64,000 nucleotides of DNA, from NCBI RefSeq assembly GCF_018860565.1, contig NZ_JAHKPS010000009.1, positions 62,001-126,000 of the forward strand. Reading direction: 5' to 3'. Both the position numbers and the translations under genes were made by a program. The notes under the pieces were generated by a model. It was not told where the DNA came from and ran no database searches. It saw only the letters and a program-made list of their open reading frames with translations. The stretch comes from Winogradskyella psychrotolerans (lineage in GTDB: Bacteria; Bacteroidota; Bacteroidia; Flavobacteriales; Flavobacteriaceae). This document shows positions 27,760 through 31,617 of the stretch, piece by piece (positions within the stretch are counted from its first letter, which is position 1; every line of letters starts with the position of its first letter).

Positions 27760-30447
27760 TTAAAAACGATAAGACATAGAAAGTGACACAAAAGATTTAT
27801 TTAAAAAAATATAAGTATTAGTATTAGAAATTAAAGACGCATAACTATTCTGAAAATTTCTAACATTAGTTAAATTCTGACCAATTAGTCTAAAATCTAA
27901 TTTATTCTTTATCGCTAAATATTTGAACTCAATATCAATAAAATTATAAACTTGGTCAATATTGTTAGATTCGCTAGGATAGATTTGTTTTGAATCTAAA
28001 GAAAATATTAATTCATCATTGATGTCGTAAACCAATTGAAAGAAACTAGTATATTGTGTATTTTTATTATTTATAATTGATGTCTTTAGATTGGTAAACT
28101 GCGCTTTAAAACCCGACTTTAAATTTATTTTACTTTTAAAATAGCTGCCATATCTTAAACCTATATTATTAACATAATTTGAAGCCATTTCTTCATTACC
28201 TGCAATCTCAACATAACTTCGCCGGTATATACCTCCATACTCTAAAAAAAAACCTGATTTGATGGAACTAAAACTTCTATTTACCTTAAAAGATGCTATG
28301 GTTATATTATTATTTTTAGCTCTAGTATTAATTAAAATATCAAAGTTTGGAGTGTTTATATATTCATAACCAAATGTATTTTGGTTGTAATTATAACTCA
28401 ATGATGCATCAATAAATATGTTTTTCCTGAAATCTGATATTGCGTATGATATTCTTGACCTATGTTTATAAAGGTTAAACAATTCATTTATACCTTTGGT
28501 AAATCCCCTATTTGAAGTTAATAATAGGCCACTATAAACATCACTTATTCCAGGTTGTTTTAAAGAAAATTTATAAGAAACAGTATACTTACCATATTTC
28601 TTCGTTTTTTTAGATAATTTCAACTCTGGCTCAGCGTATAATTGATGGTTTGTTTCTGTAAAATTCTGCCCTACTATATCATTTTTATATTTTACGCTAT
28701 TATAACCTCCTTTTGCCTTTATTGTTAAATCATATTTCTTCCCTAACGAAAACAAATACTGCCTATAGACGAAAAGATCTTTACTAGTATTAGTTAAATT
28801 ATTATAAAACGTTAAATCCTCAAATTGTAACTCAGAGCCATCATTTAAAGTTTTACTAATTATTTTTTCATCCTTAATTAAAAATCCTAGATTCCATTCA
28901 TGTGTTTTACTAATTAATTTTGAGTTAAACCCATAATGTCTTATTGGATTTTCATAAGATTGAGTTATAATGCCTTGATCATCAAAAATAGGATTACTAG
29001 TAGAATAGCCTTGTGGGTTTTTATCTTGTAAATAAAACAAGTTTATACTTAACGCGCTTTTTCCGCTAACTCTAAATGTAGTGTTGAGCTGTTGAGAGAA
29101 ATAGTAATCTTTAATATCCAAATTTTCATTGTACTGATTGTCATCAATAGTTAAATCTATGTTTGTTTCGTTTTTAGAATTGTTTATAATCCCATTATAT
29201 TCTATAAACGATTTACTTCCGTTTGCATTCTTAATATTTAACTCAGCATTGAATTCACTAGACTTCTCTCTATGAAATTTTGATTGAAAAACACTAAAGT
29301 TTGATGGTGCTGAGTAAAAAGTGGTAAAAGCATTTTCTTTTTTAACAACATCATCTAGAAAATAAAAAATCCCTCTAACATGAATATTTTTTTTGGGTTT
29401 TGTGAGAAGATGTAATGAATTAAAATATGAAGTATTATCGTTAATATACGTTTCATTAAACAAACTATTGGACGCTACGACATCTGTCGTAATTATATTT
29501 TTGGAAAAAGCTCGATAATCTTCAAAATAACTACTACCCGATCTATTGAACATGGAACCGTTAAGATTCTCATTAGCTTTTTCACCAATGGTATTCGTTT
29601 TACTTATTAGAAACGTTTTTAAATTATTGTTTAAATTAAAAAGTGTTAAATCGCCTAAATAATTATTATCATTACCATATCCAACATTAGTTTTACCATA
29701 AATAGCTCCTTGTCTTTCTTTTTTTATAGATATATTTAATGCTATATCTTCAGAGTCAGTCAATGCTCGCAATACAGAATTTTCATCAAAATTATAAATA
29801 ATTTCAACCTCTTCTATATCACTGGCATCAATATTTTTAGTAGCGATTTTATAATTATTATCAAACACATCATCACCACCTATTAACACCTTTGAAATTG
29901 CTTGGTTATTTACTTTAACAATTCCATTAGCATCTACTTCAATACCAGGCAAGTTTTTAAGTAAATCTTCAAGTACTTCATTTTGTTTAGTTATAAAGCT
30001 AGAAACTTTAAATGTGATAGTATCCTTTTCAATTTTTATAGGCTGTTGAGATTTTACAACCACAGCATCTAACTCTGTGATGTCAGGATACATCATAACA
30101 TCAATTTGGTATTCTTTCAGCCCTTTTTTAATATTAACTATAACATCATCAACCTTATAAGCTAAGGATTTAAATTTTAAAATATATAAGCTTTTATTAG
30201 ACGGAATTTTGAAGTTATATTTTCCATCTTTCTGAGTTCTAAAATTAGCGATATACCTATTATTTTTATCTAATACAACTACTGTTATTAAATCTAAAGG
30301 TTGGGAAATGGAATCAGTAACTATTCCATAAATATTAATTGATTCTTGGGAATGAGAAATATGGAATGAAAATACTATAAAAAAAATAATTTTAAGACTT
30401 GATGATATAATACTAAAGTCATCATTCTTTTTTAAGTGATTCCTCAT
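27760..30447 (-). CDS. TonB-receptor-like outer-membrane protein with carboxypeptidase-like N-terminal domain
   Basis: About 895 residues. The signal-like helix (SSLKIIFFIVFSFHISHSQ) is followed by a carboxypeptidase-regulatory-like beta-sandwich (~35-125), a plug-like segment (VLEDLLKNLPGIEVDANGIV, SKVLIGGDDVFDNNY) and a large barrel ending SLSMSYRF. Classical TonB-box evidence is absent. It overlaps the GLPGLI gene; I take the ATG at 30447, though an in-frame ATG at 30462 exists. It is last in the run peptide, GLPGLI, receptor, so it may handle a peptide or protein substrate (inference). Confidence 0.82.
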   Translation of the reverse strand: MRNHLKKNDDFSIISSSLKIIFFIVFSFHISHSQESINIYGIVTDSISQPLDLITVVVLDKNNRYIANFRTQKDGKYNFKIPSNKSLYILKFKSLAYKVDDVIVNIKKGLKEYQIDVMMYPDITELDAVVVKSQQPIKIEKDTITFKVSSFITKQNEVLEDLLKNLPGIEVDANGIVKVNNQAISKVLIGGDDVFDNNYKIATKNIDASDIEEVEIIYNFDENSVLRALTDSEDIALNISIKKERQGAIYGKTNVGYGNDNNYLGDLTLFNLNNNLKTFLISKTNTIGEKANENLNGSMFNRSGSSYFEDYRAFSKNIITTDVVASNSLFNETYINDNTSYFNSLHLLTKPKKNIHVRGIFYFLDDVVKKENAFTTFYSAPSNFSVFQSKFHREKSSEFNAELNIKNANGSKSFIEYNGIINNSKNETNIDLTIDDNQYNENLDIKDYYFSQQLNTTFRVSGKSALSINLFYLQDKNPQGYSTSNPIFDDQGIITQSYENPIRHYGFNSKLISKTHEWNLGFLIKDEKIISKTLNDGSELQFEDLTFYNNLTNTSKDLFVYRQYLFSLGKKYDLTIKAKGGYNSVKYKNDIVGQNFTETNHQLYAEPELKLSKKTKKYGKYTVSYKFSLKQPGISDVYSGLLLTSNRGFTKGINELFNLYKHRSRISYAISDFRKNIFIDASLSYNYNQNTFGYEYINTPNFDILINTRAKNNNITIASFKVNRSFSSIKSGFFLEYGGIYRRSYVEIAGNEEMASNYVNNIGLRYGSYFKSKINLKSGFKAQFTNLKTSIINNKNTQYTSFFQLVYDINDELIFSLDSKQIYPSESNNIDQVYNFIDIEFKYLAIKNKLDFRLIGQNLTNVRNFQNSYASLISNTNTYIFLNKSFVSLSMSYRF

Positions 30448-31270
30448 AAGTATTATATTCAATTTGATGGTATTTATCTAGTAGCTTTATCTGTTCATCA
30501 TTATATTCTATATTTACGTATGCACTTGGATCTCCACTTCTCATTTGCCCTGTCGCAATCATTGCTTTTTTATTATTTACGTAACTTAAGTACAATCTAA
30601 AACTTTCTTTAAGGTACTCCTCTAAATTATATACATCTTTAGAATTTGGTTTCGCATAATATGCTTTTGATTTACTATTCTGCTTTATAGTATTGAAAGT
30701 GATATTTATTAAGTCTTTATCATCATGTACTTCTAAAATTAATCCTGGTAATCCGTGAAATTTCCATGGTCCAGTAGGTACTGGAATGTCATAAGTAAAC
30801 CAAGCCTCATAATTACGACCTCTAAAATTTTGGGTAGTTGCTTTATAACAAACATAGTCTCCTATTTTTTTTGATTCCTCCGTAATTACCCAATTAAAAT
30901 CAATATCCTTTTCCTTAACGGTAACCTCATACTTCTCCATTAAGACTTCGCGTGAGGTTAACTCTTTGGTATTAAAATTTAAATAAAATTTGTAACCCTC
31001 TTCATCATAATTTCTATAAAAACGCACGCCATTAAATCTACCTGTTCTATCTCCTACTTTTTTAAAAAACCCTTCGGCTCCTTCAAAATTTATTCTATTG
31101 TAAATAAATAGGCTTGTGCTATCATTGTAGTACAACCTAGATTTGTAAGGTATTCCTTCTGTATAGCTATGTAAATTAACATCAAAAGTATAGGATACTT
31201 CTGTTAAATCTATAGTTTCTTGAGAGAAGCAAAATGAATAAAATAAAATAAAGTAAAATGTTAACTTCAT
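30422..31270 (-). CDS. GLPGLI family protein
   Basis: 282 residues with a signal peptide (~1-16, ending CFSQ) and the family-naming motif in KFHGLPGLILEVHD (~residue 170). GLPGLI proteins are Bacteroidota-specific, exported, of unknown function, and usually sit next to a TonB-receptor-like gene as here; the two overlap by 26-41 bp. Unusually, its ATG is preceded with no gap by ten ATT repeats (31271-31300), where a ribosome-binding region would be. The upstream neighbour is a small secreted Cys peptide. Confidence 0.88.
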   Translation of the reverse strand: MKLTFYFILFYSFCFSQETIDLTEVSYTFDVNLHSYTEGIPYKSRLYYNDSTSLFIYNRINFEGAEGFFKKVGDRTGRFNGVRFYRNYDEEGYKFYLNFNTKELTSREVLMEKYEVTVKEKDIDFNWVITEESKKIGDYVCYKATTQNFRGRNYEAWFTYDIPVPTGPWKFHGLPGLILEVHDDKDLINITFNTIKQNSKSKAYYAKPNSKDVYNLEEYLKESFRLYLSYVNNKKAMIATGQMRSGDPSAYVNIEYNDEQIKLLDKYHQIEYNTYEESLKKE

Positions 31271-31300
31271 AATAATAATAATAATAATAATAATAATAAT
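31271..31300 (-). repeat. (ATT)10 trinucleotide microsatellite abutting the GLPGLI start codon
   Basis: Thirty bases are a perfect AAT repeat on the plus strand. On the coding strand they read ATT ten times and run straight into the ATG. Length changes would move the leader relative to the start codon but never alter the frame, so any effect would be on expression level. Confidence 0.97.
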
Positions 31301-31356
31301 TCTGTGTGATATAAAAACTATTTTGTCTGGTAAAAATTATAATTTAATAATATCTA

Positions 31357-31617
31357 TTATGGCTCTAATTTAGGAACATTCTTCTTTTTCACAGGCGCTT
31401 CGCATCCTTCGGATTCATATACAGATTGAGCATATTCTTCAAACTCTGCTTCACTACACCAACCATAGGACGGACCATTGAATATACACCCAGGACCACC
31501 ATCTATGACATATGATTGATTGCAATACTCTTCATAATTATCATTATTTAAATCATCGCTAGAAGTAAATGATAAAACTCCTAATGCACAAATTAATGCA
31601 AATATTGTTTTTTTCAT
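31357..31617 (-). CDS. Small secreted cysteine-containing peptide
   Basis: 86 residues. The signal peptide is MKKTIFALICALGVLSFTSS; the mature part of ~66 residues is acidic with four cysteines (C32, C44, C54, C72), a GGPGC motif and GWCSEAEFEEY, ending in a basic, proline-containing tail KKKNVPKLEP. It resembles small Cys-bearing exported peptides found in families in Bacteroidota, but I do not recognise a named family. It lies 86 bp upstream of the GLPGLI gene on the same strand and could share its transcript. Confidence 0.72.
   Translation of the reverse strand: MKKTIFALICALGVLSFTSSDDLNNDNYEEYCNQSYVIDGGPGCIFNGPSYGWCSEAEFEEYAQSVYESEGCEAPVKKKNVPKLEP

Follow-up and report, generated by a model that had tools for sequence, protein, structure and literature searches.

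Why does a gene for a small exported cysteine peptide stand at the head of a GLPGLI–receptor gene pair, and is its place there more than chance? The question is raised by a locus of the marine bacterium Winogradskyella psychrotolerans (Flavobacteriaceae), within a stretch of 64,000 nucleotides (positions 62,001 to 126,000 of contig NZ_JAHKPS010000009.1; hereafter the window) to which coordinates refer unless another locus is named. Three neighboring minus-strand genes encode there an 86-aa peptide (31357..31617), a 282-aa GLPGLI protein (30422..31270), and a TonB-receptor-like outer-membrane barrel (27760..30462, 900 aa from a TTG start). This arrangement, given in a preliminary description made from the letters of the window, is borne out by the open reading frame (ORF) calls, as is the overlap of the last two genes, which amounts to 26 nt between the GLPGLI stop and a receptor ATG at 30447, a likelier start than the TTG at 30462. 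As shown below, the link of the peptide with the GLPGLI–receptor pair is more than chance; the genes form a real and conserved set that belongs to a broader pattern, of which we have found no description.

The peptide carries a Sec-type signal, recognized by eye, and the four mature cysteines originally reported (residues 32, 44, 54, and 72), a fifth cysteine lying inside the signal peptide. The GGPGC motif also singled out earlier is present, but it varies among relatives (GGLNC, GGPGC, GGPNC, NIPGC), and conservation does not extend to the basic tail; the cysteines and a GWC motif are kept among relatives despite the lesions described below. Neither Pfam nor NCBIfam, the GG-leader profile TIGR04149 included, contains a model that matches the peptide at E ≤ 1, and 72,556 plasmid records gave no match at E ≤ 0.1. 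Measured against W. undariae over 84 codons, the ratio of nonsynonymous to synonymous divergence (dN/dS) of the peptide gene is 0.35, the highest of the genes compared (receptor 0.23, GLPGLI 0.12, the neighboring panB-like gene 0.04), and on the basis of this divergence we consider the ORF a real gene. A hairpin followed by a helix is weakly predicted as its structure, with a mean predicted local distance difference test score (pLDDT) of 61 (about 80 for residues 31–70) that only the best of five models reached, the others scoring 36–42.

Searches with the single peptide returned five genomes among 99 relatives at E ≤ 0.01, the window included, of which the window, W. undariae, and W. marincola are credible. 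Across 397 genomes of the family there were four, two of them credible: that of the window and G352 (E 1.8e-6), from a genus other than Winogradskyella. The peptide of Gelidibacter gilvus was added by a scan of named genomes with the GLPGLI alignment. When we asked whether homologues of the peptide sit away from GLPGLI genes, as the preliminary description had proposed to check, each of the four credible relatives proved to have GLPGLI and the receptor immediately behind it; the position is kept in five loci of this peptide family. Of four weak matches (L008 and L009 from the 99 relatives, L011 and L012 from the 397 genomes), the three inspected, L008, L009, and L011, have no GLPGLI within about 1.5 kb on either side by eye and were set aside as chance. 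Within the genus, this GLPGLI occurs in five of 68 genomes at E ≤ 1e-30. Peptide and receptor stand beside it in the window, W. undariae, and W. marincola, and both are missing in W. echinorum (G035) and in W. psychrotolerans genome G055, where GLPGLI lies between the same flanking genes.

The pattern extends to peptides of other kinds. On reading a first set of 78 loci, picked by GLPGLI motifs and not by peptides, many small secreted cysteine ORFs appeared upstream of GLPGLI. We counted ATG ORFs of 45–125 aa that have a signal-like start by a simple rule and at least two cysteines after residue 18, and that end within 450 nt of the gene, and found them before 18 of 49 GLPGLI–receptor units compared with 10 of 231 other ORFs of the same loci (Fisher p 4.5e-9). 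The negatives of this set include W. undariae, W. marincola, G. gilvus, L087, and the second copy in L033; L026/L027 and L051/L063 are near copies, and eight further units have less than 500 nt upstream. A second set of 136 loci, collected with TIGR01200 in genomes from the class and having no GLPGLI sequence in common with the first, gave 8 of 41 units against 6 of 131 controls (p 0.0054). Because genes inside an operon have no room for such an ORF, units and controls were also matched for free upstream space. The excess remained in the first set, from which the loci of the window's own family were left out (16/31 vs. 6/84 controls, one-sided p 5.8e-7; 16/31 vs. 3/21 secreted-gene controls, p 0.006), as well as in the second (6/14 vs. 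1/32 controls, p 0.0019; vs. 0/10 secreted genes, p 0.022), where the positives are L153, L181, L190, L193, L208, and L226. Among 21 peptides listed by hand (that of the window and 20 of the first set), a listing that required at least two cysteines, 19 have an even number of mature cysteines. Ten peptides have in common SCG, a helix-like stretch, and a cysteine pattern, and eleven were grouped by eye on a cysteine, a likely hairpin, and then a cysteine before a helix-like stretch. Ten secreted-peptide examples gave no Pfam or NCBIfam match over the cut-off as tested, and two trimmed GG-leader examples pass it when read at full length (that of L040 and, as another example, that of L075). A profile of the SCG type, which at 36 positions is too short to inform, had no match in 345 genomes at E ≤ 0.001.

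GG-leader precursors of ribosomally synthesized and posttranslationally modified peptides (RiPPs) are found in the same place. In L040 (a Bacteroidetes metagenome-assembled genome, MAG) and L075 (a Bacteroidales MAG), GLPGLI lies inside full radical S-adenosylmethionine (rSAM) RiPP operons, in the order receptor, TIGR04149 precursor (40.7 and 41.4 bits in L040 and L075, respectively; cut-off 25), GLPGLI, TIGR04148 rSAM maturase (511 and 531 bits; cut-off 300), TIGR04150 pseudo-rSAM protein (322 and 390 bits; cut-off 250), peptidase-type ATP-binding cassette (ABC) exporter, and HlyD-like adaptor. For the ABC proteins of both loci and the adaptor of L040, all the listed models score under their own cut-offs, and the adaptor of L075 is named by similarity. 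This operon content places the GLPGLI–receptor pair with a gene for a peptide product. A TIGR04149 precursor also precedes GLPGLI in L038 (31.8 bits), homologues of the rSAM protein occur in seven of the 78 loci (three as short partial ORFs), with the pseudo-rSAM protein too in four, and in L076 and L084 GLPGLI lies beside homologues of both. Elsewhere, in L051, genes for a peptidase-type ABC exporter and an HlyD-like protein (1591–4445 and 9207–9896) lie near a Sec-type SCG peptide, GLPGLI, and a receptor; this locus is a possible bridge between the Sec-type and the exporter-linked peptides.

In a quick, midpoint-rooted tree of 52 receptors (first 420 aa, long branches flagged), the side holding the window receptor comprises 14 rows (Shimodaira–Hasegawa-like approximate likelihood ratio test, SH-aLRT, 97), all with a peptide gene in front, intact in nine and broken in five. 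Thirteen are labeled peptide-positive, the window and four rows of its family by hand, and the fourteenth is an Aquimarina copy whose peptide gene lacks a start codon. The remaining 38 rows carry mixed labels (11 SP, 2 GG, 25 none), and one of the 11, L053, looks like a TIGR04149 precursor but, at 21.1 bits, falls short of the cut-off (25). Labels change nine times on the tree, compared with a mean of about 17.7 when shuffled, and none of 500 shuffles was as low. The link of peptide and pair that the preliminary description had advanced is supported by the gene order in four relatives, the joint absence in two species, the excess of cysteine ORFs in two samples, and the RiPP operons. Other, unrelated-looking peptides are found ahead of this pair across many Bacteroidota, which makes it probable that self-made peptides are what the pair handles.

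How it might do so depends on the two partners. The identity of the GLPGLI protein is confirmed (TIGR01200, 142 bits, cut-off 50; PF09697, 56.9 bits, cut-off 25), its signal peptide is visible by eye, and genes of this kind are frequent in Bacteroidota (present in 90 of 276 genomes of the class at E ≤ 1e-25). Its structure, predicted from 54 sequences with a mean pLDDT of 82.6, is a half barrel of the PNGase-bowl/LolA-like kind. PNGF-II comes closest, with its bowl domain (Foldseek E 5.7e-9, Z 15.4), followed by 2yzy, LolA, Porphyromonas gingivalis LolA, MucB, and RseB (E 3e-5 to about 3e-2, Z 8.3–10.2), with a Foldseek E of 6.5e-4 (8v1k) and a Z of 9.6 (2w7q) for LolA, 9.3 for P. gingivalis LolA, and 8.4 for MucB; the Z comparison covered the listed fold families only, so that the absence of others carries no meaning. 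The half-barrel fold is shared with LolA/LolB and RseB/MucB (Z about 7–10), from which GLPGLI differs in having no PDB sequence match to them and in its nearest fold, the PNGF-II bowl. We suggest from the predicted fold that GLPGLI may be a periplasmic carrier. Runs of GLPGLI genes with no receptor in view also occur in Bacteroidales (seven genes in L044, six in L066, five in L050).

For the receptor, the carboxypeptidase-like N-terminal domain claimed in the preliminary description stands at the level of the family: the window copy falls under the Pfam cut-off (22.6 vs. 32.3 bits), and 22 of 25 aligned relatives, the window included, match at E ≤ 0.001. The receptor profile matches the N-terminal domain of a SusC homologue (8aa4, E 4e-14), a domain thus shared with SusC-type receptors; unlike in SusC systems, GLPGLI occupies the neighboring place, and no SusD gene is seen by eye next to the receptor, the neighbors of which are GLPGLI and an sdaA-like gene. 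By eye, the receptor alignment also displays a TonB-box-like LDAVVV/LDEVVV motif and a plug-like conserved block, and the receptor ends in Phe.

A further clue comes from the way in which the locus breaks. The peptide gene is disrupted in all four relatives: W. undariae and the window differ by one base in the A-run that follows the start codon, and the W. undariae start is out of frame; W. marincola has a stop codon where its signal peptide ends; G352 shifts frame at a T-run within the signal-peptide sequence; and G. gilvus has two stops plus a frame change. GLPGLI and receptor are full length in the first three (283 and 900 aa in W. undariae, 285 and 903 in W. marincola, 280 and 879 in G352); in G. 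gilvus, by eye, a frameshift affects GLPGLI, and the receptor, lying close to the end of the contig, is truncated, with a transposase-like frame beginning behind it. The same is seen with other peptides. In L087 (a Prevotellaceae MAG) the peptide start is out of frame at an A-run and the partners are full length (274 and 877 aa), giving with the three relatives four loci of a broken peptide beside complete partners, and in the second Aquimarina copy (L033) the peptide start codon is missing and the receptor runs off the locus. Loss of the peptide first, with receptor and carrier kept, would be explained if the peptide were a shared secreted good; the siderophore literature (e.g., PMC5583256) treats nonproducers of secreted goods that keep the receptor. 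Alternatively, recent decay or homopolymer switching may be the source of these lesions.

As to the role suggested earlier ("export, maturation or uptake"), nothing points to maturation of the window peptide, no modifying enzyme being seen by eye among the ORFs of 25000–35000; among export, uptake, and signaling, we infer a function from the features above. The reading that we tentatively prefer is that the locus is a self-contained peptide-handling cassette, made up of a self-made peptide, a GLPGLI carrier, and a dedicated TonB receptor, and serving most likely in recapture. We infer that the peptide would be exported by Sec and would then leave the cell, its four cysteines probably forming disulfides; that GLPGLI, as a periplasmic carrier of LolA-like shape, would bind the peptide; and that the barrel would be a TonB-driven receptor dedicated to it, most likely bringing back the peptide or its bound cargo, as happens in methanobactin and siderophore systems. 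As a shared secreted good, the peptide would be lost first while receptor and carrier stay. We rank recapture above export on two grounds: the peptide is lost before its carrier and receptor, and a TonB-box-like motif is present in the receptor. More doubtful is the extension of this scheme to a phylum-wide Bacteroidota class, in which GLPGLI receivers and barrel receptors would serve hypervariable secreted cysteine peptides (Sec-type or rSAM RiPP) acting as shared or self-recognition goods, which would be switched off or lost through lesions in the start or the signal peptide, with the receptors retained.

Several observations weigh against the cassette. Three of the eight positives of the second set (L174, L186, and L193, the last also among the six matched positives) seem spurious by eye, 33 of its 41 units have no such ORF by our rule, and 52 further GLPGLI genes of that set have the reverse order, with a receptor-like gene in front (e.g., L108, L109, L110, L115, and L122). 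Profile comparison finds no homology of the window peptide to the SCG group or the hairpin group. Pfam finds no plug in the window receptor, and PF07715 is matched at E ≤ 0.001 by one of the 25 members. Ependymin-like proteins (Z 9.7) and VioE (Z 9.5) resemble GLPGLI as well as LolA does; such Z values are barely above the background stated for the tool, and the fold shows no function. The joint absence of peptide and receptor in W. echinorum and W. psychrotolerans G055 is perhaps one loss, since their GLPGLI proteins are each other's nearest (68% identity); it may thus count as a single event, and GLPGLI is retained there without either partner. Finally, the whole G. gilvus locus decays, so the broken peptides could reflect early decay and not cheating.

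The best-surviving rival, which we nevertheless hold to be unlikely, is that GLPGLI and barrel carry the peptide out or give the producer immunity, the peptide being a bacteriocin-like weapon. The cysteine peptides evolve fast, related operons contain the exporter-like peptidase ABC and HlyD-like genes, a Sec-exported peptide needs an exit through the outer membrane, and passages of PMC8939145 predict TonB-receptor-related proteins as peptide exporters. The full-length carrier and receptor of the four broken-peptide loci, however, are not what a pure exporter would predict, although immunity would predict them, and the TonB-box-like motif suggests import. Rather less probable is a relic, that is, a decaying peptide gene beside a pair that serves another substrate. 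It would account for the disruption in four of four relatives and for the many units of the second set that have no such peptide; the window copy is nonetheless intact, its dN/dS stands at 0.35, the cysteines and the GWC motif are conserved in spite of the lesions, and intact peptides of different kinds are found repeatedly at this position. We give slightly less weight again to signaling or self-recognition, in which the peptide would be a ligand sensed via receptor and GLPGLI, not an imported cargo. RseB and MucB, which the GLPGLI fold resembles (Z 8.3–8.4), are periplasmic sensors, fast evolution of the peptide fits specificity, and GLPGLI is kept without a receptor in two species; these Z values, however, lie near the background named for the tool, and no regulator gene is directly adjacent, the histidine-kinase-like ORF lying about 2.3 kb off with other genes between. 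That there is no functional link at all, small secreted ORFs being common in these genomes and beside many secreted-protein genes, is the least probable account, for although such ORFs do precede some controls (10/231, 6/131, 6/84, and 1/32; secreted genes 3/21 and 0/10), the enrichment holds in both samples at matched upstream space, the position is kept in five loci of the window's peptide family, and RiPP precursors are found in the same place.

Like the TIGR04148/TIGR04149/TIGR04150 clusters, the locus brings together a small cysteine-rich precursor, a GLPGLI protein, and a receptor of that same family in an operon-like run; unlike them, it has a peptide with a Sec-type signal and no GG-leader match, and, by eye, no adjacent rSAM, peptidase-ABC, or HlyD gene. 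Methanobactin, with its TonB receptor MbnT, and peptide siderophores are self-made small peptide products served by a dedicated TonB-dependent receptor. The window locus would share this feature and differs in having no adjacent modifying enzymes by eye and GLPGLI as an extra partner. In the published passages that mention GLPGLI, it figures in lists of regulated or annotated genes, and those passages propose no function for it. Passages of PMC8939145 list an outer-membrane barrel among the genes near graspetide loci, and the TonB-receptor-related proteins that they predict to be exporters are mostly from Bacteroidetes; passages of PMC10352776 report Bacteroidales RiPP clusters with outer-membrane protein genes, its main text containing neither GLPGLI nor TonB. 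No description of a peptide/GLPGLI/receptor cassette was found in the literature searched, which mostly excluded subscription literature and is no proof of absence. Taken together, GLPGLI is tied to secreted cysteine peptides, RiPP operons, and the TonB-receptor family, which makes its function testable in one three-gene locus, and the findings point to a set of small secreted peptides such as the ten examples described above.

The peptide ORF is also framed by an inverted repeat of 16–17 nt (one mismatch allowed) in the window, W. undariae, W. marincola, and G. gilvus; in the window the left arm (AACTATTTTGTCT) lies upstream of the peptide ATG (31643..31655, minus strand) and the right arm between peptide and GLPGLI (31316..31328, plus strand). 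In each of the four species, none of 60 mononucleotide shuffles reached the repeat length, and in W. undariae one arm pair is changed on both sides together; the repeat is absent around the peptide of G352. Among 19 other loci scanned, only L030 beat all 60 shuffles, with a 16-nt inverted repeat of different sequence that also flanks its peptide gene (about 5304–5618), L033 and L042 being reached by one shuffle in 60 and L095 by two. A mobile cassette was rejected: the genome contains four copies of the arm, including the two at this locus, and two of a reversed control, so that no dispersed element is present. As regards DNA inversion, all four loci have one orientation; as regards an RNA stem, the minimum-energy fold pairs the arms, yet the whole fold is no better than shuffles (z −0.75). 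The repeat may act as a stem in RNA processing, as operator sites, or as a site of DNA recombination. A perfect trinucleotide tract of 10.7 copies (31269..31300), absent in W. undariae, lies directly before and into the GLPGLI start codon, and its length might affect GLPGLI translation.

In Winogradskyella the locus is bordered by two plus-strand genes, an sdaA-like gene (26248..27672), which we take to encode a serine deaminase, and a panB-like gene (31803..32621), presumably for a ketopantoate hydroxymethyltransferase. By eye, the ORFs of 25000–35000 include no rSAM maturase and no exporter, the neighbors having been read without a profile search. The histidine-kinase-like ORF, also named by eye, lies at 33915–34736 on the minus strand, past the peptide gene, with panB and others between. 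In W. echinorum a small secreted SnoaL-like gene (by eye) follows GLPGLI (L021, 6922–7392), and a similar one follows the receptor in W. marincola (L020, 9581–10039). A second locus in the window's own genome (L100, 1–1483; C1 near 67 kb) contains two GLPGLI genes and a receptor, with a secreted-looking ORF just upstream that, at 130 aa, exceeds our length limit and has no NCBIfam match over the cut-off. A four-helix-bundle gene (32836–33117) matches TIGR02436 at 112 bits over positions 1–82 of 109 only, and seems truncated compared with its relatives in other Winogradskyella.

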